Positions 3,793 to 48,546 of a DNA stretch of 48,546 nt are shown here, piece by piece. The notes under the pieces are model-generated. The model had not been told where the DNA came from. It did not search any database and saw only the letters and a list, made by a program, of their open reading frames with translations. Position 1 is the stretch's first letter. Every line of letters begins with the position of its first letter. The stretch is from assembly GCA_024508855.1 (NCBI GenBank), contig JANINJ010000010.1, positions 1 to 48,546 on the forward strand, read 5' to 3'. Made by a program: the position numbers and the translations under genes. Source of the stretch: Xanthobacteraceae bacterium. Lineage in GTDB: Bacteria; Pseudomonadota; Alphaproteobacteria; Rhizobiales; Xanthobacteraceae.

Positions 3793-4155
3793 ATGGAAAA
3801 ACTGAGTAGCCTATATCAAGCGCATCCTGGCGACGCAAAGCTGATGCACGAGTTGCTTGGGTTCACCTCGTGGACTGGCGAGTACGGATGTGAAATCCAC
3901 CTGGGCGAGGTCCGACCGTATGCAGACGAGGAGCCGGCCGATCAACAAACGGTGATTACGATTTTTGTGACACCGATTCCTGCTCAGTTCTGGCGTTTTG
4001 AAATTGTGCGCAAAGCTGATCGGGATGATTACCAAGGCATGGAGGCTATCTCTATCAGCACTGGTTCCGGCACGTTGTCTCAATACTGGCCAATGGCCCT
4101 CGCGGTCGCAAACGGTTGCCTTAGTGTGTCGGCGCCCCAACGCATCGAAAGGTAG
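3793..4155 (+). CDS. Hypothetical protein, possibly frameshifted at its end
   Basis: A 120-residue soluble protein beginning MEKLSSLYQAHPGDAK, with ATG at 3793 and AAGGAAAACAG upstream. Its body is rich in strands and tryptophan-containing turns (SWTGEYGCEIHLGEVRPY). I do not recognise the family. The last ten residues (SVSAPQRIER) look out of character, while another frame starting near the same point continues with protein-like sequence to 4253. The gene may therefore have suffered a frameshift near 4120 (see next entry). Confidence 0.55.
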   Translation: MEKLSSLYQAHPGDAKLMHELLGFTSWTGEYGCEIHLGEVRPYADEEPADQQTVITIFVTPIPAQFWRFEIVRKADRDDYQGMEAISISTGSGTLSQYWPMALAVANGCLSVSAPQRIER

Positions 4156-9083: not shown

Positions 9084-9257
9084 GAGCAGGCCGCCGCGTC
9101 CCGAGAGGGCGCGGGGTTTCGGCCGGCGTCAACGGGCGGCAGGTGCCCGAAGCCCCGGCCGTCAGGACGGGGTGAGCCGGTAGGAGCCGGCCCGGTAGGG
9201 CTTGGCCGCGCGCGGCCAACTCCGTAGCCCGGCGAAGGTCTGCCGATCCGTTCGTTG
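9084..9257 (+). repeat. Structured inverted-repeat element, copy 1
   Basis: This 174 bp GC-rich element is the reverse complement of 13224-13397 with 2 differences. It can fold into several hairpins: CCGCG-T-CCC-GAGA-GGG-CGCGG, closed by a GNRA-type loop; CCCCG-GCCGTCAGGA-CGGGG; and an 18 bp perfect palindrome, TTGGCCGCGCGCGGCCAA. A diverged third copy at 13529-13654 keeps the first hairpin and unpaired segments, but replaces the second with CCCCGGC-GAT-GCCGGGG, a compensatory change. This is what a conserved structured RNA or a cruciform DNA site would show. No known RNA family is recognised. Confidence 0.75.
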
Positions 9258-9287
9258 ACTGTTGAGTTATTGATTTTGAGTTGATTT

Positions 9288-9431
9288 ACCTTGTGCGCCG
9301 CGTAGCGGTGCAGTCTGAAAATAATGTTCTTCCCGTGAGTCAGTTACAGTTGCGTAATGGGAATTTCAGCTTATGACCTTGTGCGCGAAGCGCAGTCTAA
9401 AATTCCCCTCACGGGGTGCCCGCTAGCGGGC
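9288..9431. repeat. Paired hairpin motifs and palindromes next to the origin
   Basis: Two copies share the frame ACCTTG-hairpin-AGTCTRAAAAT: 9288-9322 (stem GCGCCGC-GTA-GCGGTGC) and 9376-9403 (stem TGCGC-GAAG-CGCA). The stems differ but both pair. They are followed by CCCC-TCAC-GGGG (9405-9416) and the perfect palindrome GCCCGCTAGCGGGC (9418-9431). They lie just before the AT-rich part of the origin, so single-strand initiation sites or protein-binding sites for replication are plausible. Confidence 0.6.
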
Positions 9432-9826
9432 GGGGTGGGGTATTAAGTTAACGCGGAACGCGAAAATTAAAAAAATCTATTAAAAAATTTATTAGACGAA
9501 ACGTTTTTCATAGATGAGAAATTGAAAAAGTGGGAGTCAATCCCCGTGTTATGGGAGTCTTACCCCGAGTGCATGGGATTCAATCCCCGAACCGTGGGAG
9601 TCAAACCCCGAAATGTGTCTGGGAGTCGTACCCCGTGTTCTTTGAGCCCGAGTGGGAGTCATATCCCGTGCTATTTCTGCTCTGTGTGGGAGTCAAACCC
9701 CGCGTTTAAGGAATGCCTTCAGTATTGAGGCACCCTGGCAGGGAGTCCAACCCCGTCGCCTTAATACGGCTGAACTTACAGCTACAAAAAATTGTCGCAG
9801 TGCATCAAAAAGGGAGTCATTCCCCG
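9432..9826. other. oriV: Iteron-type origin of vegetative replication (oriV)
   Basis: A strongly AT-rich stretch (9440-9531) adjoins nine copies of a 15 bp iteron with consensus GGGAGTCNNNCCCCG, all in one orientation. They start at 9532, 9553, 9575, 9596, 9621, 9654, 9688, 9741 and 9812. The first four are 21-22 bp apart (two helical turns); spacing then widens to 25, 33, 34, 53 and 71 bp. The trfA-type gene lies 0.8 kb away on the - strand. Known of the family: TrfA monomers bind iterons and melt the adjacent AT-rich DNA. I found no perfect DnaA box. Confidence 0.9.
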
Positions 9827-9849
9827 CACCCTTCGCAGATAATGAAATG

Positions 9850-10600
9850 CGTAACGCAGCCGCCGCGGCGTGCTGCAGCTGGTGGTGGTGGCGATCGTAC
9901 GAGCCCGCGTGCAGCGACGCCGCCCGGATCCGCACCTGGGCAACGGCCTGCAGCAGCTGCCGGCGGCCGCGCCCTGCACCCGAGCGAAGCGCCGGAGAGA
10001 CACGCCGGCGGCGCCTGCCGGGGCCACATGCGTCTGCAGCTGGTCGACGTCGACCGCGGCGGCCAAGCGCGCAGCGCGCCGCCGTACACAGGCGCCGCGT
10101 GCTGCAGCTGGCGGCCGTACTCGAGCGAAGCGACGGGGAAGACGTCGGCGCCGCTGGTCGAGACCACATGCGCCTGCAGCCGGTCGACGTCGACCGCAGC
10201 GGCCAGCGCGAAGCGCGGGACGCCGGGCACGCCGGCGCCGCGTGCTGCAGCTGCTGGTGGCGATCGCACGCGCCCGCGTGCAACGACGGCGCCCGGATCC
10301 GCACCTGGGCAACGGCCTGCAGCAGCTGCCGGCGGCCGCGCCCTGCACCGAGCGAAGCGACGGAGAAACACGCCGGCGGCGCCTGCCTGGGCCACATGCG
10401 TCTGCAGCCGGTCGACGTCGACCGCGGCGGCCAGGCGCACAGCGCGGGACGTCGTGCACGCCGACACTGCGTGCTGCAGCTGGGTAGTCGCGATCGCCCC
10501 TGCGCTGCTGGCCAAGACCTCGGCGCGGCCAGCTGGTCGACGGCTACGCCGGCGGCCAGACTCGCGCAGCGCGGCCGCGTGCTCCAGAGACTGGCCACTC
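9850..10600. repeat. GC-rich palindrome-dense repeat array B
   Basis: A second array of the repeat family seen at 1-1090, but of a distinct sub-type. Recurring blocks are GGATCCGCACCTGGGCAACG (9916 and 10294), CTGCAGCTG or CTGCAGCCG, GGTCGACGTCGACCG and GTGCTGCAGCTG. Long frames across both strands are low-complexity Arg/Ala/Gly/Pro and are rejected as genes. The array fills the space between the iterons and the trfA terminator. Function unknown. Confidence 0.85.
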
Positions 10601-10608
10601 CAAGACGT

Positions 10609-10633
10609 AAAAAAGGCACGCCAAGCGTGCCTT
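10609..10633 (-). terminator. Intrinsic terminator after trfA
   Basis: AAGGCACGC-CAA-GCGTGCCTT is a perfect 9 bp stem (10613-10633). On the - strand it is followed by a run of T (A at 10609-10614 on the + strand), 20 bp past the trfA stop. It should end the antitoxin-fic-trfA transcript before repeat array B. Confidence 0.85.
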
Positions 10634-10647
10634 ACCTATACGTCGAA

Positions 10648-10662
10648 GGGAATCAATCCCCC
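10648..10662. repeat. Isolated iteron-like site over the trfA stop codon
   Basis: GGGAATCAATCCCCC matches the first oriV iteron (GGGAGTCAATCCCCG) at 13 of 15 positions and spans the trfA stop codon (10653-10655). It may let the initiator touch its own gene end or pair with oriV (handcuffing). Chance similarity is possible. Confidence 0.5.
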
Positions 10663-11555
10663 TCAAATGGAAGTTCTCCATTAGAAGAAAACGCCTTACT
10701 GTTCGCCGCGATTTGCTTGCGCGCCAAGTGGCGCAACTGGCTAGAACTGCCCTTTCGCTTTACCTTCACTAAATCAGTATCCGGATCGATCTCCCCGCTA
10801 ATTATCGCGCCCACATCCTTTAGTTTTGCCAGGGAGACACGTAAGGCTTTTCGGAAGTCTGTCAACCGCTCAGCCTTGCTACCGCAGAGCGTTTTAATGG
10901 TAGAGACCTTGTACGGGACAGGTGCAGCGTGAGTTGAGTAGAAACCGTGTAACCATTGGGCAAGCGCGTTTTTCTTCAATTTGCGCCGCTGGGCCCAGTC
11001 GATATGAGAGTATCCAGCGTCGAACAGAAATCGCATCTTTTCGTCGAAAAAGATCGCGTAACGTTGGGTGGATTCTTGCCGGACCATATTTGCCACAAGA
11101 TGGCCCGCGAAAGTGTCTTCCAAGTTTGCGCATGTGATCTCGACATACGTACTCATCAGCCGAGCGATGTCCTCTTTCAGTTCCTCGTAGTCTGTACCGC
11201 CAAGCCCTCGATCGAGCGAACGCAACAGTTCACTTGCAGAGAATTCAACGTGTGAATTGCCCTGCTGTCGTCCAAAGTGCAACAGCATTTCCAGCAAGTC
11301 CAAGTCTTTCTGATTGAACGATTCGCCTTTGATAATAATTTCGTATCCGTCCACCGTAGCGAGCCGATGACGCCTACGGTAAATCTCTCGTTCCTGGCTG
11401 ATCGAAAATAGCGCGCCACGGAGGATAGGGTTTGGTACGCCGCGGACATCCTCTGGCCATGATAAGGTCAGCTGTTGTGGCTTAAACGTCGCGCTATTCG
11501 CAGCGCCGTCGCTTTGCGTCTCAGGCTCATGGTCAACTTCTTCGCTCATACTCAT
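10653..11555 (-). CDS. trfA: TrfA-family plasmid replication initiator
   Basis: A 300-residue protein of the TrfA family (IncP-type initiators). Recognisable stretches are VRGVPNPILRGALFSIS, GYEIIIKGESFNQKDLDLLE and KNALAQWLHGFYSTHA near residues 200-215, then a basic C-terminus. TrfA proteins bind iterons through winged-helix domains and recruit the host helicase. The matching iterons are at 9532-9826. The ATG lies 3 bp after the stop of the Fic gene with no clear ribosome binding site of its own, so expression is probably coupled to it. The N-terminal ~30 acidic residues are variable in the family. The gene ends in an iteron-like site and a strong terminator. Confidence 0.92.
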   Translation of the reverse strand: MSMSEEVDHEPETQSDGAANSATFKPQQLTLSWPEDVRGVPNPILRGALFSISQEREIYRRRHRLATVDGYEIIIKGESFNQKDLDLLEMLLHFGRQQGNSHVEFSASELLRSLDRGLGGTDYEELKEDIARLMSTYVEITCANLEDTFAGHLVANMVRQESTQRYAIFFDEKMRFLFDAGYSHIDWAQRRKLKKNALAQWLHGFYSTHAAPVPYKVSTIKTLCGSKAERLTDFRKALRVSLAKLKDVGAIISGEIDPDTDLVKVKRKGSSSQLRHLARKQIAANSKAFSSNGELPFEGD

Positions 11556-11558
11556 GTC

Positions 11559-12326
11559 TCATCGAAGGCGGCGCGCGGCCGAATAACCCGGCCGGAAGCC
11601 CGGGGCGAGCTGTGCAAGGGTAAGCACCTGTGACTGGTTCGGTGACAGCCCTTCCCTTCCCTGCTGGTATGCGTTCATCGGCCGCAACGGCTGGCTGATG
11701 TGGGCGAAAACCTTTTCAAGTTCCGTAATGCGGCCCGCGATACGTTCGCCATTGCCAATGTTGATGCGTGCCGACATGATTGCCGCGTAATTCCATGCAT
11801 CCGGCGCGACGGCGCTGTATTTCAGTTCAAAGCCCGCTTGCTCGGCCAGGTAGGACAGGAAAATCCTGTGGGTCCGCCCGTTACCTTCGCGGAACGGGTG
11901 CATTTCGTTGGCAAGCTGATACGTCTTGGCGATCGTCTTCACGTATTCCCCGGCCGGGATACTTGAGTAGCCGTGTGTAGCCTTCGAAATGTCCTGCAAC
12001 TGCTGATCCAGAACACGAATCTCGTCAGGGCGCGCAAATTCCGTCGTGAAGCCGTCGCCACGTTTCTTGAACAGCGGGAAGTCGCGCACTTCGCCCGCCC
12101 ATGGATAAATAATACCCATCAGCCTGCGGTGGATCTCGCGCATGTGCTCAAGGTCGAAGTTTCCCTTCGCCGGATCGAGCTTCAAGAGGTCATACGAAGC
12201 GGCAGCGGTAACGGCTTTCTCGACCTGCGCAAGCTGGTCGGCATCCCGTATGCCGAAGTTGTTTATGAGTGTCTTGCTACCAGGGTAAAACAGTGCCTCA
12301 AAACTCTCTTTGCCAGACGTTGCCAT
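11559..12326 (-). CDS. fic: Fic-domain AMP-transferase toxin, copy 1
   Basis: A 255-residue Fic protein. The catalytic motif HPFREGNGRTHR (residues 143-154) is intact, with its catalytic His, the acidic residue and the GNGR anion-binding turn. The N-terminal part (YPGSKTLINNFGIRD) and the flap region (IYPWAGEVRDFPLFKKR) are typical of the VbhT/Fic-1 group. Such enzymes attach AMP to target proteins; DNA gyrase and topoisomerase IV are known targets of related toxins. The tail ends SAARRLR, a basic end like those of type IV secretion substrates. It sits between its antitoxin, 4 bp upstream, and trfA, 3 bp downstream, as one transcription unit. The target is not known from sequence. Confidence 0.9.
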   Translation of the reverse strand: MATSGKESFEALFYPGSKTLINNFGIRDADQLAQVEKAVTAAASYDLLKLDPAKGNFDLEHMREIHRRLMGIIYPWAGEVRDFPLFKKRGDGFTTEFARPDEIRVLDQQLQDISKATHGYSSIPAGEYVKTIAKTYQLANEMHPFREGNGRTHRIFLSYLAEQAGFELKYSAVAPDAWNYAAIMSARINIGNGERIAGRITELEKVFAHISQPLRPMNAYQQGREGLSPNQSQVLTLAQLAPGFRPGYSAARRLR

Positions 12327-12330
12327 GCGA

Positions 12331-12558
12331 TCAGTGCAACGATTCGACGAGATCTACGTGGCCTGCATGTCCGGGCACGCCCGCATTAGTACGAATGATC
12401 TGGATGGCTTCCGCAAGACCGATTTCGCCGGCAATCATCTTGCCTGCGACAATTTCATTGTCTTCCGTCATCTGCATGCCCTCGATGGCGAAGGACGCAG
12501 CAATCTCGCGCCAGGTCGAGTCATTGCGCGCGATCTCGATGTACTCAGCGTTGGTCAT
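12331..12558 (-). CDS. VbhA-type antitoxin of the Fic toxin, copy 1
   Basis: A 75-residue protein beginning MTNAEYIEIARND. It contains SFAIEG, matching the class I Fic-inhibition motif (S/T)xxxE(G/N), whose Glu blocks the ATP site of the partner toxin. A helix-rich C-terminus (VAGKMIAGEIGLAEAIQII) follows, as in VbhA proteins. Start at 12558 chosen for AAGGAG 8 bp before the ATG. An in-frame ATG at 12585 with GGAGA is also possible and would add nine residues. It is directly followed by the Fic gene. Confidence 0.85.
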   Translation of the reverse strand: MTNAEYIEIARNDSTWREIAASFAIEGMQMTEDNEIVAGKMIAGEIGLAEAIQIIRTNAGVPGHAGHVDLVESLH

Positions 12559-12630
12559 TTTCCCAACTCCTTCGTGCGGTTTCATGATGTCTCCATTCTA
12601 AACGAGTTTGAAAAGCATTCCTGCGATAGC

Positions 12631-13074
12631 TCAGGCTCGGCTACGGCGATTAACGACGTACACGGGCACGATCGCCGAAAACAACACGACAAGGACGCCT
12701 CCGAGTGACATTCCAACAAGTGCCACTGCTGGTCCGAAGATCCCTACCAATAGCAATTGTAAGACAGTTGCCGCGAGGCCATGTAACAAATTAGTACGGA
12801 TGAAATTCTGGCTGAGTGACCACCACAAGACGATCCCGCCAATGGTAAAGAACACCGCACCCAGCCCTTCCAATCCGCTCTGCTGCTTGCCAAAAGTCCA
12901 GCCACCCGCAGCAAGACACAGAATTCCGAATGCCAGCCTGAGCAACAGTTTTGCCGAAAAAATCGGGTACTGAAACCGCCGCTGACAATGTTTGTGAAAG
13001 CTGACCAGCCCGCCGGCGACGACAAGACAGGTGCCGAGCACGACAAAAAACTTGCTCCATCCTTCAAACGTCAT
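12631..13074 (-). CDS. Multi-pass membrane protein, unknown function
   Basis: A 147-residue protein beginning MTFEGWSKFFVVLG. It has about four hydrophobic helices (residues about 7-24, 44-63, 70-86 and 98-140) and ends in a basic tail (VNRRSRA). Start at 13074 is placed after CGGAGA; an ATG six bases earlier is also possible. A good sigma70 promoter lies upstream (13105-13133). It lies between the Fic-trfA operon and the second structured element. It could be a host-range, exclusion or stress membrane protein; no family recognised. Confidence 0.6.
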   Translation of the reverse strand: MTFEGWSKFFVVLGTCLVVAGGLVSFHKHCQRRFQYPIFSAKLLLRLAFGILCLAAGGWTFGKQQSGLEGLGAVFFTIGGIVLWWSLSQNFIRTNLLHGLAATVLQLLLVGIFGPAVALVGMSLGGVLVVLFSAIVPVYVVNRRSRA

Positions 13075-13104
13075 AGCCATCTCCGACAACAATACGGAGT
13101 CTTT

Positions 13105-13133
13105 ATTGTATCGCATAGTCAACATCAGGTCAA
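13105..13133 (-). promoter_or_regulatory. Sigma70 promoter for the 12631-13074 gene
   Basis: On the - strand TTGACC (13128-13133) and TACAAT (13105-13110) are separated by 17 bp, 30 bp upstream of the start. A second TTGAC lies inside the spacer. TTGACC also occurs upstream of the 8570 gene. Confidence 0.7.
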
Positions 13134-13223
13134 CACTAAGTTATCAACCTGAGCGTGTTGTTTTCTCACGTTCTGACAAGCAACTGGGCGACGAGATCGA
13201 GAAAACAGCAACAGCGCAACGGG

Positions 13224-13397
13224 CAACGGACGGATCGACAGACCTTCGCCGGGCTACGGAGTTGGCCGCGCGCGGCCAAGCCCTACCGGGCCGGCTCCTA
13301 CCGGCTCACCCCGTCCTGACGGCCGGGGCTTCGGGCACCTGCCGCCCGTTGACGCCGGCCGAAACCCCGCGCCCTCTCGGGACGCGGCGGCCTGCTC
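13224..13397 (-). repeat. Structured inverted-repeat element, copy 2
   Basis: Reverse complement of 9084-9257, identical at 172 of 174 positions. The two differences (a C/T in GGTCTGYCGATCC and one near the end) leave the stems intact. Together the two copies bracket 3.97 kb holding oriV, array B, trfA, fic, the antitoxin and the membrane gene, so homologous recombination between them could invert this module. Confidence 0.8.
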
Positions 13398-13528
13398 GTC
13401 ATGGTCGTTCCAGCGTGTGGGAAAGCGGGCTTACAGCATAGAGCCATTAGCAGGACTGGTCCCCGACGGGCCGTTGCTCCTTTTGTCGACGACCCTTGCT
13501 GATTCCGAGGAAAGGTGGCGAGCCTGGC

Positions 13529-13654
13529 GCCGCGTCCCGAGAGGGCGCGGGGTTTCGCTTGGCGATCGTGGATTAGCAGGTGCCCGCGGCCCCGGCGATG
13601 CCGGGGTGAGGCGGTAGCCCTAAGGGCGTATCCCGCTGAAGGTCTGCTGATCCA
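13529..13654 (+). repeat. Structured element, diverged copy 3
   Basis: Shares the first hairpin with copies 1 and 2 (CCGCGTCCCGAGAGGGCGCGG), then GGGTTTCG, AGGTGCCCG, GGGGTGAG and GAAGGTCTGCTGATCC. It differs in the second stem (CCCCGGC-GAT-GCCGGGG) and has GCCC-TAA-GGGC where the others have a longer arm. Changes that keep pairing suggest selection for structure. It ends 1 bp before the stop codon of the 13656 gene. The stretch 13398-13528 between copies 2 and 3 holds no gene. Confidence 0.65.
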
Positions 13655-40854: not shown

Positions 40855-43800
40855 TTACCTTTTGATAGCTTTTGCTGCGCGTTTTTTAGCCGGAGTTGCA
40901 ACCTGTGTTGTTTTTTCCGCTTGGCGCATGGCCTTCATCAGTGTCTGACGGCTCATCTCTTGCGCGAGGAACTTCTGCTCAAGCTCCTTGCCCCGCAGCT
41001 CAAGTGCAGCGTACTTCTTGGGCTCGCGCGCAACGGAATCCGGCAACTTCGCCTTGTTGTTTGTGTAGATGGCCAGCTCGTGACGTGGCCGCGAGATGCC
41101 AACATAAAACACAGCCCTATTACTGGTAAGGCTGTCCGTGTTCACGTCCATGATGACGCGATCCATCGTCAAGCCCTGGGCACTGTGAATCGTCATGGCA
41201 TAGCCGTATTGCATGTGCAATCGACGGTCCCGAGGCAGCTCGATCCCGCCCTGCAGCCTGATCGTGTTGGCCGTCACGGCTTCGACCTTGTAGCGCTCGC
41301 CGTTCGCAATACCGAGGCGATTATTGTTGCGGGTCACCCGGATCCAGTCACCCGGACTCAGGGTGATCTTTTGTTGCGAATAAGCCGAGAAATTGCGCAT
41401 CTCGGATGGGTCGAACGTGATGGTTTGCTTGTCCGGACCAACGACCGTAAGAACATTCTTTACCGTGTCAATCACGGAAATTACATACTGTTCTCCCCTC
41501 TCGAACTGCCCTCCCCTTTTCGCCGACTCGAACACCACCACCTGGTCGACCTGAAAGTTGCCGGCGACCTTCTTTTCGGCGCGCGTCATGTCGACGCTCT
41601 CCAACGTAGCGACATCATCGCCGCGGCCAAGACTTAAGGCCCCACGTACCTTTTCGTTGATACTTCGGCGCGCATCGTTCGTACCCACGACGACAAGCGT
41701 GTTGTTGCGCTGTTCTTCGGTCATCGATGTGTAGTCCTTCGCGATAGCGGCGTGGCGATCCGCATCGTCCTTGTACTCATAGATCCGGCTTTCCAGCTGC
41801 GCCGCGGCTTCACGGACGTTCCCACCTGCCGCGCTGATGACTGCTGTTTTTAGCTCCGCGTTTTTCTGACGCTGGATCTCGGTGATATGGGCGACCGACA
41901 TGCCGCCTTCCACCAGCTGCTCGAAGGGTTTGCCTGCCTCGACCGCCTGGGTTTGTTTGATGTCGCCGATAAGGACCAATCGAGCGTTACGCGCCTCGAT
42001 CTTTTCGATCAGGTCACGCATCTGATGCGCAGGAACGACGCTCGCCTCGTCCAGAAACACAACCGATTTTTCATGCAGGCCGCCGTGATCCTGCTTCCGC
42101 ATCAGGAACGATGCCAAGGTCTGCGACTTCATTCCCAGCTCGGCGAGTGCCTTGTTCTGCGACGCGTAGGGCGCGAGACCAATGACCTCGTAGCCCTGCT
42201 GCTGCATCGCTTTGGCGGCCTCCTGCTGGATCGCGTCGACGGTCTGCTTGAGCATGTGGCTCTTGCCCACTCCGGCCCAGCCCTGCACGCCGACGATGCG
42301 ATCTTCCGTCGTCAGAATCAGGCGCGCGGCATCCTTCTGGCCATCGTTGAGATTGGATTTCGACAGCATGGCATCGACCTCGCCGGCCGCACGAATCGGC
42401 GCTACTGCACGACGTCCAGCCGCGGCCTTGCTTTGTATCGTCAGTTCGTCGTCGAGCATCGCGCGCGTAGTGAAGCGCAGCTCAGTACGAACAAGGCGAC
42501 CGGCTTTGATTGATTCGTCGACTAGCCGTTTGGCTTCCTCCTGGGTCCGTCCTGTATTGGCCATCGTGAGGGCGACCCATGAAGATGCGGTAAGGCGCGT
42601 TGCCTCCTCGGCCTTGAAGAACTTAGCCATCGGATTATCGGCTTCCGTCTCTTGCTCGCGCGAGAACGATTTAGCACTTTGGTACAGCGGCAGCTCGGCG
42701 ATGATCCTTCCATCCCTGATCGCCGCGTCGATCTCGTCGTGCAGCCCTTCGTGGGCGGCCAATGCGTTCGTCAACGCCTTTTCCATCAGTTCGTTGCGCG
42801 TGAAAATGCCCTGCCGTTCCATCAGGTGTTCGATTGACAGGTCCACGGCCCACCGGGCTTTGTCGCGCTGCGCGGCGTGCGCTTCTTCCTCGCGCCTGGC
42901 GACACGTTGCGGCATGACCTTGCGCTCGATGTCGCTGATAATCTCCTGCACCTTTTCCTTGAAGGCCTCGCCGGCGCCGGCCGGCTTCAGCTTGATACCG
43001 GCCTCCTTTAACATCGCTTCCCACTGCTTTTTCAACTCCGTGCGGTCCGCCTCGGTTTTGTTCGGACGTGTCGCCTTGGTGATGGTCTGCTTGGTCTTGG
43101 AATTAGCGCTATCCCGGTCGAGCCCCTTCGACTGCAAGGCGTCTTCGATCTGCTGGCTGCGCGTTGAGAAGACCTTGATCGCCTTGTCCGAAATGTCGGC
43201 CAGCTCAAAGCCATTGCGCGTCGTGCGGATCTCGTAACCCATCGCCTGCAACCGCTTCGCCAAGTCCGCACGGTAGTACGCTCCAACGACCTTGATGGAC
43301 TTGAGCATTTCGTCGTTGGTCAGGCCGACCCACTTCCCATCGTCCCGCTGCGTGAGATTCATCGCAACGGAATGGGTGTGCAGCTGCGGATCCTGGGTGC
43401 GGGACAGTTCATGCCTGAACGTCGCGAACACCAAGTTCGCGGTGTGCTGACGGAAGCTGATGCCCTTCTCCTTCTTCCGCGCCAATGCACGGGCCTCCAG
43501 CTGCTTCAGGGCTGCGCTGACGGCCTCGTCGTGCGCGCGTAGCAACCGCTCATCACCATTCACCAGCGCGGCGATGCTGACGCTTTTGGGCGCGGAAAAG
43601 GTGAAGTCGATCCCAAGCCGTTCCTTGGACACCTTACCGTCCTTCTGCATCTTCGGCATTCGCTTGCGCGCCACTTCGCCATCGGGAAGTTTCCCTTCCA
43701 GTAAATTCTTGAATACTTCCCGCTCCACCCCGCCAACGAGGCCGAGCTTTTCGGCGCCGGCGCCCTGCCAGATACCGCGATGCCCCTCCTTCGTGTAGTA

Positions 43801-43866
43801 GTCGTCCGTGTTCTCGAAATAGTGCGCGGCGCCGCCAGCATTGGTCACAAATTTGAAAGACAGCAT
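40855..43866 (-). CDS. trwC: MobF-family conjugative relaxase-helicase
   Basis: A 1003-residue TrwC/TraI-type protein. The relaxase domain has tyrosines Y23-Y24 (NTDDYYTKEG) and the HUH triad with FRHELSR (H152) and DPQLHTHSVAMN (H163, H165). The helicase part has Walker A GWAGVGKS (about 528-535), VVFLDEASVV and further SF1 motifs (YAMTIHSAQGLT). It cuts oriT, stays bound to the DNA 5-prime end and unwinds the strand. The likely nick site is at 45988. The gene begins right after the coupling-protein stop. Confidence 0.95.
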   Translation of the reverse strand: MLSFKFVTNAGGAAHYFENTDDYYTKEGHRGIWQGAGAEKLGLVGGVEREVFKNLLEGKLPDGEVARKRMPKMQKDGKVSKERLGIDFTFSAPKSVSIAALVNGDERLLRAHDEAVSAALKQLEARALARKKEKGISFRQHTANLVFATFRHELSRTQDPQLHTHSVAMNLTQRDDGKWVGLTNDEMLKSIKVVGAYYRADLAKRLQAMGYEIRTTRNGFELADISDKAIKVFSTRSQQIEDALQSKGLDRDSANSKTKQTITKATRPNKTEADRTELKKQWEAMLKEAGIKLKPAGAGEAFKEKVQEIISDIERKVMPQRVARREEEAHAAQRDKARWAVDLSIEHLMERQGIFTRNELMEKALTNALAAHEGLHDEIDAAIRDGRIIAELPLYQSAKSFSREQETEADNPMAKFFKAEEATRLTASSWVALTMANTGRTQEEAKRLVDESIKAGRLVRTELRFTTRAMLDDELTIQSKAAAGRRAVAPIRAAGEVDAMLSKSNLNDGQKDAARLILTTEDRIVGVQGWAGVGKSHMLKQTVDAIQQEAAKAMQQQGYEVIGLAPYASQNKALAELGMKSQTLASFLMRKQDHGGLHEKSVVFLDEASVVPAHQMRDLIEKIEARNARLVLIGDIKQTQAVEAGKPFEQLVEGGMSVAHITEIQRQKNAELKTAVISAAGGNVREAAAQLESRIYEYKDDADRHAAIAKDYTSMTEEQRNNTLVVVGTNDARRSINEKVRGALSLGRGDDVATLESVDMTRAEKKVAGNFQVDQVVVFESAKRGGQFERGEQYVISVIDTVKNVLTVVGPDKQTITFDPSEMRNFSAYSQQKITLSPGDWIRVTRNNNRLGIANGERYKVEAVTANTIRLQGGIELPRDRRLHMQYGYAMTIHSAQGLTMDRVIMDVNTDSLTSNRAVFYVGISRPRHELAIYTNNKAKLPDSVAREPKKYAALELRGKELEQKFLAQEMSRQTLMKAMRQAEKTTQVATPAKKRAAKAIKR

Positions 43867-45480
43867 TTACGAGGCTTTCGAAAAGAGAGGCTTCACAGTA
43901 GGTGCATCGTTCGACACGAATTCGCTCGTCCAACGGTTTTGAATGAGGATCAAAGGCTCCGTCACCTGCGGCCGTGCCTTGTACTTCATACGCACCCGTG
44001 CGACCGGGGTATCACCAGACAGCTTCACATAGCCGGTGAGGTCGGGAAGACTCGATACTTGCGAAGCTAGAACTAGCGGTTCAGTAACCTGCTCGTAGCT
44101 AGTGGTGGCGCGTGCATCGCCGATGCCACCGGCCAGGGAGAGACGTCGGCGCGCGACGACGTGTTCACCAATGCCCTTCTGGATTTGCTCGGACGTGTAA
44201 TTGTCCTTGTTCGAGATGCTAAGGCTGAGGCTGTTCTTGAGGCTGTTCCGCAGCGTCAGCGCGTCGTTCTTGCCGTTGGTTTCGTCGAGTTGGGCGTAGG
44301 ACTGGAAGCCACACGCAATGTGCATTTTGTGTTTCCGCGCCTTAGTCGCCGCGATGACCAGGTAGTTCAACTTATCGAGCGAATCGGTTTCGTCGATAAC
44401 GAGATGCATATCGACGGCACTCTCTACTGCCGAACTCAACGAGCTTTGGCAAATTACGTCAATCCAGCAGTTAATGAGAGGCTTCAGGGCTGGCAGCTGA
44501 TCTTCCCGCCACGTGATCCATAAATTTCCAGATCCGTTTTCCAGCCAATTTCGAATGGAATAGGGGACTTCGCCCTCGACAGGTGGCTCCAGGTATTTAT
44601 GGGCCGCGATATAACGGGTGAGCACAGTACGCACGCTACCCAATGTTTCCTCGGCGCCGTGGAACATACCGGCAGCGGGAGTGTTTTGAAGCAGCTGACC
44701 AAGGTCATCATTACTCGCCTCAACAAGCCAATAATGCAATCGGTCGGTTGTCGTTTCACTGCGGCGCCACAATACACCCATCGTTTCAGCAACGATAGTA
44801 CGCGCCATTGCGTTCCATTGTTCCTGCTCCGTCGCCGGCGCCCTGGGAATCAAACTAACAGCATAACCCTGCAGGTCATAAGCGGTCCGAATTTCATTGA
44901 AGATGGACCAGGACTGGCCGCGAGCGTCGAATGCATTAAGTACGTGGTCATTAGGCTTAAAGAATTTGGACATGAACGATCCGTTCGGGTCGACGCAAAT
45001 AACGCGGTCCCCGCGCTCAAGCGCACTCTCAAGATATTCCTCAATCGCTTGGGATTTACCGGAACCCGTTGACCCGACAAATTCAAAGTGAAGATATTCC
45101 TTCATCAGAGGAACAGGGATAGTACCAAGCCTCAACTGCTTATTACCCCATTCGCGACACATATCACGCAATTGAGCGGGACTGGTAAAACGCGTACCGC
45201 GAATATGCTGCGCAAAGTCCGCGATTCCCATTCCAGTAAAGTAATACGCCCGAAGGAGAATAAAGGCTGCACAGCCCCAAATAAAGGCGAGGGCAGGGGG
45301 GACTAACAAATGAAAGTCTGTTGGCGTCGCCAGGATCGAATAGTACATACCAAGAAGGAATGCACCTTTAGGAATGGTAAAGGTTTTGAACACCGCAAAT
45401 ATCCAAGCCGCTATCGTGATAACGACAATCCCAAACATGTAACCGAGGTTATTTCGATTGTCATAAAGTCTTACGCTCAT
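43867..45480 (-). CDS. virD4: VirD4/TrwB coupling protein
   Basis: A 537-residue inner-membrane ATPase. Membrane helices are near residues 13-32 and 58-78 (LLVPPALAFIWGCAAFILL). Walker A GSTGSGKS is at 136-143, and MHLVIDETDSLDKL (mid-protein) is the Walker B region. It links the relaxosome to the secretion channel. The start overlaps the accessory-gene stop (ATGA). The length is near that of TrwB. Confidence 0.93.
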   Translation of the reverse strand: MSVRLYDNRNNLGYMFGIVVITIAAWIFAVFKTFTIPKGAFLLGMYYSILATPTDFHLLVPPALAFIWGCAAFILLRAYYFTGMGIADFAQHIRGTRFTSPAQLRDMCREWGNKQLRLGTIPVPLMKEYLHFEFVGSTGSGKSQAIEEYLESALERGDRVICVDPNGSFMSKFFKPNDHVLNAFDARGQSWSIFNEIRTAYDLQGYAVSLIPRAPATEQEQWNAMARTIVAETMGVLWRRSETTTDRLHYWLVEASNDDLGQLLQNTPAAGMFHGAEETLGSVRTVLTRYIAAHKYLEPPVEGEVPYSIRNWLENGSGNLWITWREDQLPALKPLINCWIDVICQSSLSSAVESAVDMHLVIDETDSLDKLNYLVIAATKARKHKMHIACGFQSYAQLDETNGKNDALTLRNSLKNSLSLSISNKDNYTSEQIQKGIGEHVVARRRLSLAGGIGDARATTSYEQVTEPLVLASQVSSLPDLTGYVKLSGDTPVARVRMKYKARPQVTEPLILIQNRWTSEFVSNDAPTVKPLFSKAS

Positions 45481-45851
45481 CGTACCGTCCCATTATTGCC
45501 GTTGAGAAATTTCTCAATTGTACGCATATCGAGGGTCTTGTCGATCTTCGACTGCAGGGTCTTGTCGACAGACGGATACACCAGGACTAAGAGCGCCGCC
45601 AGCATGCGCATCTCAATGTCCGACGATTCCCGCTCGGCCATCCGGTAGACCAGGTTCCGGATTTCCGACAGCTGCTGGGAGTGCTCGCGCATCTCCGCTC
45701 GCACCTCACCAACGAGCTGATCGACTTCACCGGCCGCCTGGAAATAGGCCCGGCGAAAGTGCTCCGATCGGTTCGTATCGCCCCGGAGGGCCATCCGCTG
45801 GGCGATAACTTCTTCCTCAGCTTCTGTCGTTCTGAACTGTGCTAAACCCAT
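45477..45851 (-). CDS. TrwA-like ribbon-helix-helix relaxosome accessory protein
   Basis: A 124-residue protein whose N-terminus (QFRTTEAEEEVIAQRM, then RGDTNRSEHFRRAYF) is a ribbon-helix-helix DNA-binding motif. A helical region and MLAALLVLVYPSV follow. In IncW plasmids TrwA binds oriT, aids nicking and represses its own operon. The two TGTATACA palindromes upstream (45860-45934) are candidate operators. ATG at 45851 follows GGAGGAAAT. Confidence 0.85.
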   Translation of the reverse strand: MGLAQFRTTEAEEEVIAQRMALRGDTNRSEHFRRAYFQAAGEVDQLVGEVRAEMREHSQQLSEIRNLVYRMAERESSDIEMRMLAALLVLVYPSVDKTLQSKIDKTLDMRTIEKFLNGNNGTVR

Positions 45852-45859
45852 ATTTCCTC

Positions 45860-45934
45860 CTGTATACAAAATTCCAATTGTAAATCATGCACTTGGGAAT
45901 GTGTTGTAATACATGAACACCCGTTTGTATACAG
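45860..45934. promoter_or_regulatory. Operator pair of the trwA-like operon
   Basis: CTGTATACAAA (45860-45870) and TTTGTATACAG (45924-45934) are perfect inverted copies of an 11 bp site with a TGTATACA palindrome. One touches the ribosome binding site and the other lies 64 bp away, with TACAAT at 45887-45892 as a -10 on the - strand between them. This fits autoregulation by the ribbon-helix-helix protein. Confidence 0.7.
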
Positions 45935-45962
45935 CAAGATACAGTAGGCATGCGGGTTTCAA

Positions 45963-45989
45963 GCACATTTGTAATGTGCGTATGGTGTG
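45963..45989 (+). other. oriT: oriT nick region of MobF type
   Basis: A hairpin GCACATT-TGT-AATGTGC (45963-45979) is followed by GTATGGTGT/GTAAGG. In R388 (from memory) the hairpin GCACC-GAAA-GGTGC is followed by GTATTGTCT/ATAG, with the nick 9 bases after the stem. The same spacing puts the nick between 45988 and 45989. The stb-like operon would enter the recipient first and the transfer genes last. Confidence 0.75.
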
Positions 45990-46082
45990 TAAGGTAGTTA
46001 AGAGGGGCGGAATAGAGGTCAGGCAAGCAATAAATGAGACGCATTCTCACCAGCGCGGGGTTCTCCAGGGCGTATTTCATCC

Positions 46083-46139
46083 CTCCAGGCACAGCCTGGA
46101 GCCATCAGGACGGGCTAGGGCAGATTTCCAGTTGGAAAT
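46083..46139. repeat. Inverted repeats between oriT and the stb operon
   Basis: CTCCAGGC-ACA-GCCTGGAG (46083-46101) is a perfect 8 bp stem, and ATTTCCA-GT-TGGAAAT (46124-46139) a perfect 7 bp one. They may be oriT accessory or regulatory sites. Confidence 0.6.
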
Positions 46140-46140
46140 G

Positions 46141-46230
46141 CTGAAATCTATTGAAATTTCCTGAAAATCGTTGCAAGATACGGAAATCGGATGCAGTACC
46201 GTGAAAAATCAGGCCAAACCATGAAATTTC
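46141..46230 (+). promoter_or_regulatory. 10 bp phased TGAAAT-like repeat array
   Basis: Nine successive decamers (ctGAAATcta, ttGAAATttc, ctGAAAAtcg, ttGCAAGata, cgGAAATcgg, atGCAGTacc, gtGAAAAATc, agGCCAAAcc, atGAAATttc) keep G at position 3 and mostly A at 4-6. Period 10 places all on one face of the helix. It is likely a binding array for the product of the next gene, as the stb repeats of R388 are for StbA, and may also bend DNA. Confidence 0.65.
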
Positions 46231-47048: not shown

Positions 47049-47825
47049 ATGGCAAAAATCGAACACCCGAAAAAAATCGCTGTACTCAATTTGTCCGGCA
47101 ACGTCGGCAAAACGACCCTCGCTAAAAACCTGCTGGCGGCGAACCTGCCGGCCGCAAAAGTAATCTCGGTCGAATCGGTCAATAACAATGATGCGCTGCA
47201 AGTCGACAGCATCCAGGTCGAGGAATTGAAAGCCAGCCAGTTCAAACAGATTTACCACTCGCTGATGTTCGAGGATGACGTAATCCTCGACGTAGGGGCG
47301 TCGAACGTAGCTCAATTCATGGAAGAGTTGACGAAATTCCGCTCGGCGATCGGCGAACTGGACCTGATTGTGATTCCGACGGTGCCGGCCGAAAAACAGC
47401 AGAAAGATACCATTGCCACGATCGAATGGCTGCACAAGCTCGGCGTACCCGCCAACCGTATTCGCGTCGTATTCAACCAATATACCGGTCAGGATCCGGT
47501 AGGCGCTACTTACGCGCATGTGATCGGCTATTCGATTGACAAGGATGGCCAGAATAAGGCCACGTGGCTTCCGCATCCGGTTGTGGCATCGAATGAAGTG
47601 TTCGAGATGATTACCCCGTTGCGTCGCACGGTGCGCGAAGTCGCCGAAGACAAAACCGATTGGCACGCGAAGCGCGCGGCCGCTAAGGCCGAAAGGAATA
47701 TGGAAGCGCTGGAAGACGCGATCGAGGGCCAAATGGCTCACGACCTGGCCGTGTCCTGTCTCGCGAACCTCGAGCAAGCATTCGAGGATCTGATGTCGCC
47801 GTTCGCTAAGTCGCCGAAGAAATGA
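47049..47825 (+). CDS. stbB: StbB-like ParA-family ATPase
   Basis: A 258-residue ParA-superfamily protein. The P-loop NLSGNVGKTTLAKNL (residues 14-28) lacks the signature Lys of ParA (KGGxGKT). DDVILDVGASNVAQF is the Walker B region and LDLIVIPTVPAEKQQKDT follows. In R388 the StbB ATPase is needed for conjugation and for positioning the plasmid. ATG at 47049 follows AGGAATATC. It overlaps the next gene by 4 bp. Confidence 0.85.
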   Translation: MAKIEHPKKIAVLNLSGNVGKTTLAKNLLAANLPAAKVISVESVNNNDALQVDSIQVEELKASQFKQIYHSLMFEDDVILDVGASNVAQFMEELTKFRSAIGELDLIVIPTVPAEKQQKDTIATIEWLHKLGVPANRIRVVFNQYTGQDPVGATYAHVIGYSIDKDGQNKATWLPHPVVASNEVFEMITPLRRTVREVAEDKTDWHAKRAAAKAERNMEALEDAIEGQMAHDLAVSCLANLEQAFEDLMSPFAKSPKK

Positions 47826-48329: not shown

Positions 48330-48356
48330 AGCCGGGAACGAACCCGGCTTTTTTTA
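48330..48356 (+). terminator. Intrinsic terminator of the stb-like operon
   Basis: AGCCGGG-AACGAA-CCCGGCT followed by TTTTTTT, 26 bp after the stbC stop. Confidence 0.93.
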
Positions 48357-48390
48357 TAGCGACGCCGAGTGCTGCCGTTGGTAAGGATGG

Positions 48391-48546
48391 CGATAGAAAC
48401 TGCGCGCAGCGCCGCGAGCGCGGCGGCGCGCGGATCCGCACCTGGGCCGCGGCCTACGGCAGCTGGTGACGTTCGCGCCCGGCACCCGAGCGAAGCGGCG
48501 GGGAGGGCGGCGGCGCCGGCCGGCACTACTTGCGCCTGCAGCTGGT
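48391..48546. repeat. GC-rich repeat array A, continued
   Basis: Same family as 1-1090: GCGCAGCGCCGCGAGCGCGG, GGATCCGCACCTGGGC, CCCGGCACCCGAGCGAAGCG (48478) and CTGCAGCTGGT at the end. Joining the end to base 1 gives CTGCAGCTGGT-GCGATCGCGCGAGAGG, close to the internal junction CTGCAGCTGGTGGTGGCGATCGC, which supports a circular molecule. Confidence 0.85.

Follow-up and report, generated by a model that had tools for sequence, protein, structure and literature searches.

The window analysed here—bases 1-48546 of the 60,687-bp contig C10 in the 5.16-Mb assembly of a Xanthobacteraceae bacterium—carries three copies of a repeated element which, together with its relatives on other plasmids and in viruses, probably represents a new family of single-strand initiation (ssi) sites, i.e. 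complementary-strand origins, where the folded transferred strand (T-strand) would recruit a priming enzyme, most likely the DnaG primase with the single-stranded DNA-binding protein (SSB). This reading draws on several computed observations, namely the fold with its covariation, the strand bias, the neighbouring genes, the promoters flanking the copies and a motif shared with the phages G4, alpha3 and phiK; from these we infer that priming takes place, which enzyme performs it and that it is coupled to gene expression. A search of the open-licence literature brought up no description of the element, although one elsewhere is possible. C10 is likely a circular plasmid, one family of G+C-rich repeats being present at both ends of the contig. 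Diverged G+C-rich direct repeats of this family (approximately 50-165 nt) are seen at positions 1-1085, 9882-10619 and 48351-48535.

The copies and their fold

The whole contig harbours six copies of the element, the number of three given by the sequence-only reading thus holding for the window alone:

9084-9257, + strand: copy 1, on the predicted T-strand, its 3' end towards the iterons
13224-13397, - strand: copy 2, inverted with respect to copy 1, its 3' end towards trfA and the iterons
13520-13653, + strand: copy 3, diverged (24.1 bits, E 0.022 with the covariance model)
52297-52365 (aligned core), 54143-54312 and 59161-59328, all + strand: further copies beyond the window

The near-identity of copies 1 and 2 in inverted orientation, noticed earlier, is borne out, the two agreeing at 172 of 174 positions (98.85% across 174 nt), and the ungapped inverted repeat that spans them reaches 194 nt at 95% identity. 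Copy 3, sharing 77% identity with copy 1 across 101 aligned columns, is indeed a diverged relative with a GAGA-capped hairpin, and the change of its second stem from CCCCG/CGGGG to CCCCGGC/GCCGGGG is present as described.

Three parts make up the fold on the element strand: the closing stem P1, the hairpin P2, which varies, and the conserved arm P3. This arm contains an asymmetric loop (TA opposite GTA(G/T)C) and leads to a three-way junction formed by P3b, P4 (with a GGTA, sometimes GGCA, loop) and P5. The helices of copy 1, all on the + strand, are as follows:

9095-9113: GNRA hairpin
9137-9142/9240-9245: P1 (by eye, with a pairing check)
9153-9157/9168-9172: P2
9176-9180/9229-9233: P3
9183-9186/9220-9223: P3b
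9190-9193/9198-9201: P4 (GGTA loop)
9202-9205/9216-9219, then inward: P5

In copy 3, the stem P1 is formed by GGATTAGCAG and CTGCTGATCC, and one short hairpin (CCCTAAGGG) stands in place of P4 and P5; what this copy retains of the conserved arm is P3 with its loop. The conserved blocks that had been taken as unpaired are therefore so only in part, CTGCTGATCC being in copy 3 the 3' arm of the closing stem. The stem P1 can be recognised by eye in many copies, and P2 stays a hairpin in most of them despite quite different sequences. The GNRA hairpin is dispensable, its sequence being absent from 21 of the 42 copies examined.

The fold is real. The covariation was evaluated on 43 aligned copies, 35 of them distinct, with copy 3, one copy from Eleftheria and one from Paraburkholderia phytofirmans PsJN left out. 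Within this alignment, which was fitted to R1—the covariance model of the element core built from nine sequences—and is hence biased towards the structure, pairing is kept in 96.8% of 655 cells, double-sided changes occur at 11 of the 19 pairs, the double-change cells number 105 against 31.4 after shuffling, and the covariation score is 0.400 compared with 0.110 for shuffles and at most 0.075 for slid structures. One pair within P4 is seen as CG, GC and UA. A structured element with true covariation, as the sequence-only reading had proposed from three copies, has thus been substantiated on 35 distinct homologues far above both controls.

It should be pointed out that the same reading ascribed the structure to an RNA of no recognised family. 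The GNRA loop, the GGTA loop and the covariation itself would fit such an RNA, be it a leader, a trans-acting or an antisense one, but a folded single-stranded DNA would show equal covariation, G-U pairs are nearly absent (4 of the 655 cells) and the window gave no Rfam match at gathering score, the last agreeing with the lack of a known family. The strand on which the element lies, dealt with below, bears on this question further.

Homologues, strand bias and neighbouring genes

The relatives were collected by BLAST against 72,556 plasmid records, with one record counted per group, and R1 found the BLAST-detected plasmid copies again in the whole records. In total, there are 31 copies on 11 plasmids, C10 included, and 15 viral contigs with one copy each. 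The plasmid copies are distributed among C10 (six), Herbaspirillum (three), Massilia (one), Paracidovorax (two), Acidovorax (two), Eleftheria (two), Burkholderia contaminans (six), B. glumae (one), P. phytofirmans PsJN (six), P. aromaticivorans (one) and Xanthomonas axonopodis (one); three more plasmids of B. contaminans, one more of Paracidovorax citrulli and a weak intragenic match in Marinovum were omitted. The viral set consists of 10 contigs plus five, the weak second matches (at most 17.7 bits) being left uncounted; a looser pattern returned 19 viral stretches, i.e. the 10 known, the five confirmed by R1 and four unconfirmed.

Concerning the viral contigs, 14 of the 15 resemble P2-like phages with plasmid-type replication genes; in the stretches examined, a portal gene was found in 13 of these 14, a RepL-like gene in 11 and ParA in five. 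The remaining contig, L228, belongs to a filamentous phage and carries Zot/pI and a replication gene of the G2P type. The P2-type replication protein gpA had no match in 14 records, i.e. L228 and 13 of the 14 P2-like contigs. The contigs L223, L229, L237 and L240, together with related ones, make up an apparent phage-plasmid group (P2-like, with no gpA match, RepL-like and in some cases ParA).

BLAST over 200 genomes, the own one included, yielded beyond the latter only matches of 23-36 nt in four genomes (E 1e-4 to 1e-3), and the covariance model and an exact pattern, run over 397 genomes of the order (again with the own one included), found the element in the own genome only; it should be noted that the covariance search scored only 10 first-look candidates per genome, so that weak or diverged copies could escape. 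The elements of L228 and L220 had no BLAST match among annotated phages. The short pattern GAAGGTCTGCYGATCC proved unselective (71 viral and at least 118 genome stretches), and another loose pattern returned 13 viral stretches, nine of them known and four not confirmed by R1. The contig L328 (28.6 bits, E 0.0046), the sole R1 match among 80 of at least 120 pattern-selected viral stretches, was set aside as a chance one; R1 run over the other 40 loci of that numbering gave three weaker matches (17.3-20.4 bits, E 0.13-0.58).

The direction of transfer on C10 is predicted from three genes:

40855-43866, - strand: MOBF (TrwC) relaxase
43867-45480, - strand: type IV coupling protein
47049-47825, + strand: StbB-like protein

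Their arrangement would set the leading region to the right and make the + strand the T-strand. An inverted-repeat search in 45850-46200 did not place the origin of transfer (oriT), the position of which, like the direction of transfer, is thus a predicted one. The relaxase operon of R388-like plasmids reads away from oriT. The relaxase gene typically lies in the plasmid region that enters last (PMC11541004). Seven plasmids have a relaxase that could be recognised, and 25 of their 26 copies occupy the strand opposite the relaxase gene—C10 (five of six), Herbaspirillum (3/3), B. contaminans (6/6), PsJN (6/6), P. citrulli (2/2), Acidovorax (2/2) and Xanthomonas (1/1)—and this strand is, on the two grounds just given, the predicted T-strand. 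Taken by majority per plasmid, all seven follow the rule (p 0.008 for a coin toss with each plasmid counted once). The plasmids from Eleftheria, Massilia, B. glumae and P. aromaticivorans yielded no relaxase of either family searched for, and their five copies were left out of the strand count.

The viral copies also keep to one strand. The L228 copy sits in the gap that separates the Zot/pI gene from the rolling-circle replication gene and follows the coding strand, the one that filamentous phages package, and a complementary-strand origin would be expected there; in the phage-plasmids, the element lies upstream of the RepL-like gene and on the same strand in all 11 contigs (of 14) having that gene. 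The minus-strand origin of M13 is likewise situated in the gap before the replication gene and on the coding strand, which the L228 copy, the only one found in such a phage, resembles in both respects, although it has no convincing promoter-like sequence. Across the hosts, the constant feature would therefore be the strand expected to become single-stranded, with the next genes antisense to it in the conjugative plasmids and sense in the phages. An orientation to the next gene that differs between the carriers, a strand that tracks the predicted single-stranded DNA and the rarity of G-U pairs all speak against a structured RNA, which is very unlikely, and that part of the sequence-only reading is not supported.

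As for the genes themselves, those found behind the three C10 copies outside the window encode the SSB, a PF03230 antirestriction protein and a DUF932 protein, and behind one Herbaspirillum copy there is a cluster with ssb and an N-6 methylase. The nameable leading-region genes of C10, located beyond the StbB-like gene, encode a PAPS-reductase/SspD-like protein, the SSB, the DUF932 protein and the PF03230 protein; all of them are on the - strand, as the T-strand rule expects. The same region also contains an open reading frame (ORF) for 745 amino acid residues (- strand) with no Pfam match and, unlike these leading-region genes, an ORF for 163 residues on the + strand (59636-60127).

The PAPS-reductase-like protein (L017:4460-5326, - strand, equal to contig 49460-50326), encoded near the ssb and antirestriction genes, matches SspD of PADLOC (3e-14). 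Two Fic-domain proteins are encoded on C10 (11559-12326 and 16180-17130, - strand), the former matching the PADLOC candidate family PDC-S04 (7.8e-47); the element-bearing plasmids of Acidovorax and P. citrulli likewise have a Fic gene.

A mobile or recombination repeat spread by copying—REP-like, attC-like or a recombination hot spot—would explain the near-identical copies within one plasmid (172/174, 168/168), one such pair being inverted. Each viral contig, however, has a single copy at a fixed place before repL, compensatory changes keep the pairing in diverged copies, and 25 of 26 copies keep to one predicted strand; this is the least likely of the explanations weighed here.

Start motif and promoters

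Between the promoter and the fold there is a pyrimidine tract followed by CTGCAAAGCC or its variant. In 441,780 bp (both strands, 11 plasmid stretches), 15 occurrences of the exact CTGCAAAGCC were counted, and 12 of these fall in the 170-nt 5' flank of the element on the element strand, where 0.08 would be expected. A motif at p<=0.05, no more than 12 nt away from position 92 or 135, was found in 23 of 42 copies, i.e. in 21 of the 27 plasmid and two of the 15 viral ones, and the relaxed motif is present in the 5' flank on seven of the 11 plasmids. The phage G4 has CTGCAAAGCC at 3996-4005, over the annotated primer start 3997 (the record giving the primer as 3970-3997 and the complementary-strand origin as 3998), and in alpha3 and phiK the sequence CTGCTAAGCC is found in the gap between the genes G and H, which by similarity would be the place of their origins, only the G4 record annotating one. 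The relaxed motif matches the + strand just once in each of the three genomes. DnaG prefers CTG, and the G4-type origins use the DnaG primase with SSB.

The element resembles a G4-type ssi site in the CTGC(A/T)AAGCC start after pyrimidines, as far as the copies with a significant motif go (21 of 27 on plasmids, two of 15 in viruses and none of the three in the window), in its expected action on single-stranded DNA and in the stem-loops nearby. It differs in having the fold 3' of the start, another fold and sequence, several copies per plasmid and an adjacent promoter, and it is not filed as a G4-type site because the stem-loops are laid out differently.

The promoters were looked for as -35/-10 pairs with a spacing of 15-19, scored out of 12. 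Inside 41 distinct elements no pair reached 9/12 on either strand; in the gene direction (complement) the best score was at most 7/12, none beating shuffles at p<=0.05, and on the element strand three of the 41, all PsJN copies, attained 8/12. The flanks (360 nt) were scanned for 22 conjugative-plasmid copies (six from C10, three from Herbaspirillum, two each from P. citrulli and Acidovorax, six from B. contaminans and three of the six from PsJN), and 16 of the 22 have on their 5' side a promoter-like site (at least 9) directed towards the next gene, at a distance of 112-148 or 177-193 nt counted from where the aligned core begins. Over all 22 copies, the score exceeds that of the opposite direction in 17, with three worse and two ties.

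One such promoter within the window lies beyond the scanned range:

13105-13133, - strand: sigma70-type promoter TTGACC-17-TACAAT, directed towards the ORF 12631-13125 (- strand), approximately 390 nt from copy 3

The leading-region promoters (13105-13133 and those at contig 52096 and 59033, all - strand) share, by eye, TGTTGACY at or near the -35 box, perhaps the operator of a common plasmid repressor.

These results bear on the foremost, albeit unlikely, alternative, an Frpo-like single-stranded promoter, according to which the sigma70 RNA polymerase would read the folded T-strand, transcribe the leading genes and possibly also prime. Frpo-type single-stranded promoters also give primers. 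In its site and strand, the element does resemble Frpo of F and the ssi promoters of ColIb-P9, being repeated, in the leading region, on the T-strand (in 25 of 26 copies, with the transfer direction predicted) and upstream of ssb and antirestriction genes, as described for Frpo (PMC11541004, PMC9849209); the weak 8/12 pairs of the three PsJN copies on the element strand point the same way. The internal scores, however, go no higher than those given above, conventional double-strand promoters accompany 16 of the 22 copies instead, and the element also occurs in phages, namely the filamentous one and the phage-plasmids, in which such a transcript would run antisense to the genes that follow. No convincing -35 and -10 boxes having been found within the fold, the element is not classed as Frpo.

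Several observations weigh against the reading of the element as an ssi site primed by DnaG. With regard to the motif, it was drawn up once the data had been inspected, two plasmids with near-identical copies supply 11 of the 12 exact flank matches, and neither the window copies 1-3 (p 0.60, 0.17 and 0.74) nor 13 of the 15 viral copies have a significant one. In the copies with the motif, the fold has its conserved GGTAG 82-138 nt to the 3' side of the start, whereas the stem-loops of G4-type sites are 5' of it and copied into the primer; R1 misses the G4 origin, the best match in that genome being elsewhere (9.3 bits, E 0.44), and a comparison of the G4 origin with the plasmids yielded a single match, 37 nt long, within a gene of Azospirillum (E 0.3). 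The flanking promoters beat shuffles (p<=0.05) in only 11 of the 22 copies, and six of the 22 have no promoter scoring 9, i.e. all three copies of the window, the one at 54143 and, in P. citrulli and Acidovorax, the second copy each, with copy 3 and the 54143 copy having a promoter nearer the gene, beyond the scanned range. Both Eleftheria copies share the strand with the adjacent DUF932 and methylase genes of the leading type, unlike those on the other conjugative plasmids, and copy 2 is the single exception to the T-strand rule among the 26. The support for P1 is modest, its own pairing exceeding the mean cross-pairing in 25 of 27 copies and being the best of all in six of 27. Finally, the folding of whole stretches is no better than that of shuffles for copy 1 (z -0.88) and only weakly better for the L228 copy (z -1.82), although copy 3 does fold better than shuffles (z -2.50) and that of B. 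glumae gives z -5.40; the folding energy says nothing on the strand, because complementary strands give about equal z.

Some of these points would suit an ssi site primed otherwise than by DnaG at CTG, i.e. by the PriA primosome, by RNA polymerase as in M13 or by a plasmid primase, in particular the copies devoid of the motif and the fold being on the opposite side of the start from that in G4. The strong enrichment of the motif in the plasmid copies and the lack of a convincing sigma70 site in the element speak against it, and no replication protein common to all the plasmids and phages concerned was noticed, though no systematic search was made; this variant, too, is unlikely.

Copies at the vegetative origin and the proposed role

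The remaining features around copies 1 and 2 are:

9532-9826, + strand: nine iterons GGGAGTCNNNNCCCG, eight of them exact and the ninth with a mismatch, located between copy 1 and trfA
10653-11555, - strand: TrfA-like replication initiator (PF07042, 3.3e-14)

The iterons are presumed to be the vegetative origin, and together with trfA they are bracketed by copies 1 and 2 in opposite orientation with the 3' ends facing the origin. Synthesis primed at either copy would proceed away from the origin, as at ssiA and ssiB of RSF1010, the two inverted single-strand sites at the origin of that plasmid. The likeness is one of layout—copies 1 and 2 divergently flank the iterons and trfA—with the difference that no RepB'-type primase was noticed on C10, where no search was aimed at one. 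Such an origin-bracketing role would account for copy 2 breaking the T-strand rule. Massilia, P. aromaticivorans and Xanthomonas likewise have their single copy beside replication genes. One exact match to the iteron pattern is found just 3' of the 59161 copy (L017:14334-14348), a chance match not being rare.

In the mechanism proposed for the ssi reading, the incoming T-strand would fold in the conjugation recipient at each copy (P1, P2 and the P3-P4-P5 arm), and the fold would recruit the priming enzyme of the host, most likely the DnaG primase with SSB. The primer would start 5' of the fold, at the pyrimidine-tract/CTGCAAARCC site, and the synthesis, proceeding towards oriT, would make the neighbouring sigma70 promoter, together with the establishment genes behind it (ssb, antirestriction, DUF932), double-stranded first, whereupon RNA polymerase could transcribe the establishment gene from the now double-stranded promoter. 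Where copies lie close to a vegetative origin or belong to a phage-plasmid or the filamentous phage, they would prime the corresponding single strands.

More tentatively, and as a possibility rather than the expected outcome, structured single-strand origins may be common to conjugative plasmids, P2-like phage-plasmids and a filamentous phage, heading on the plasmids the establishment operons beside a conventional promoter, with local replication, and not a single-stranded promoter, switching the early genes on. For F and ColIb-P9, single-stranded promoters are described as handling both the priming and the early expression of the incoming plasmid DNA (PMC11541004, PMC7736820, PMC9849209). If the present reading is true, the element would be a second solution to priming and early expression, in Burkholderiales plasmids, consisting of a primase-like site beside ordinary promoters, and, given its occurrence in phage and phage-plasmids, it would also represent a portable complementary-strand origin for non-enteric bacteria.

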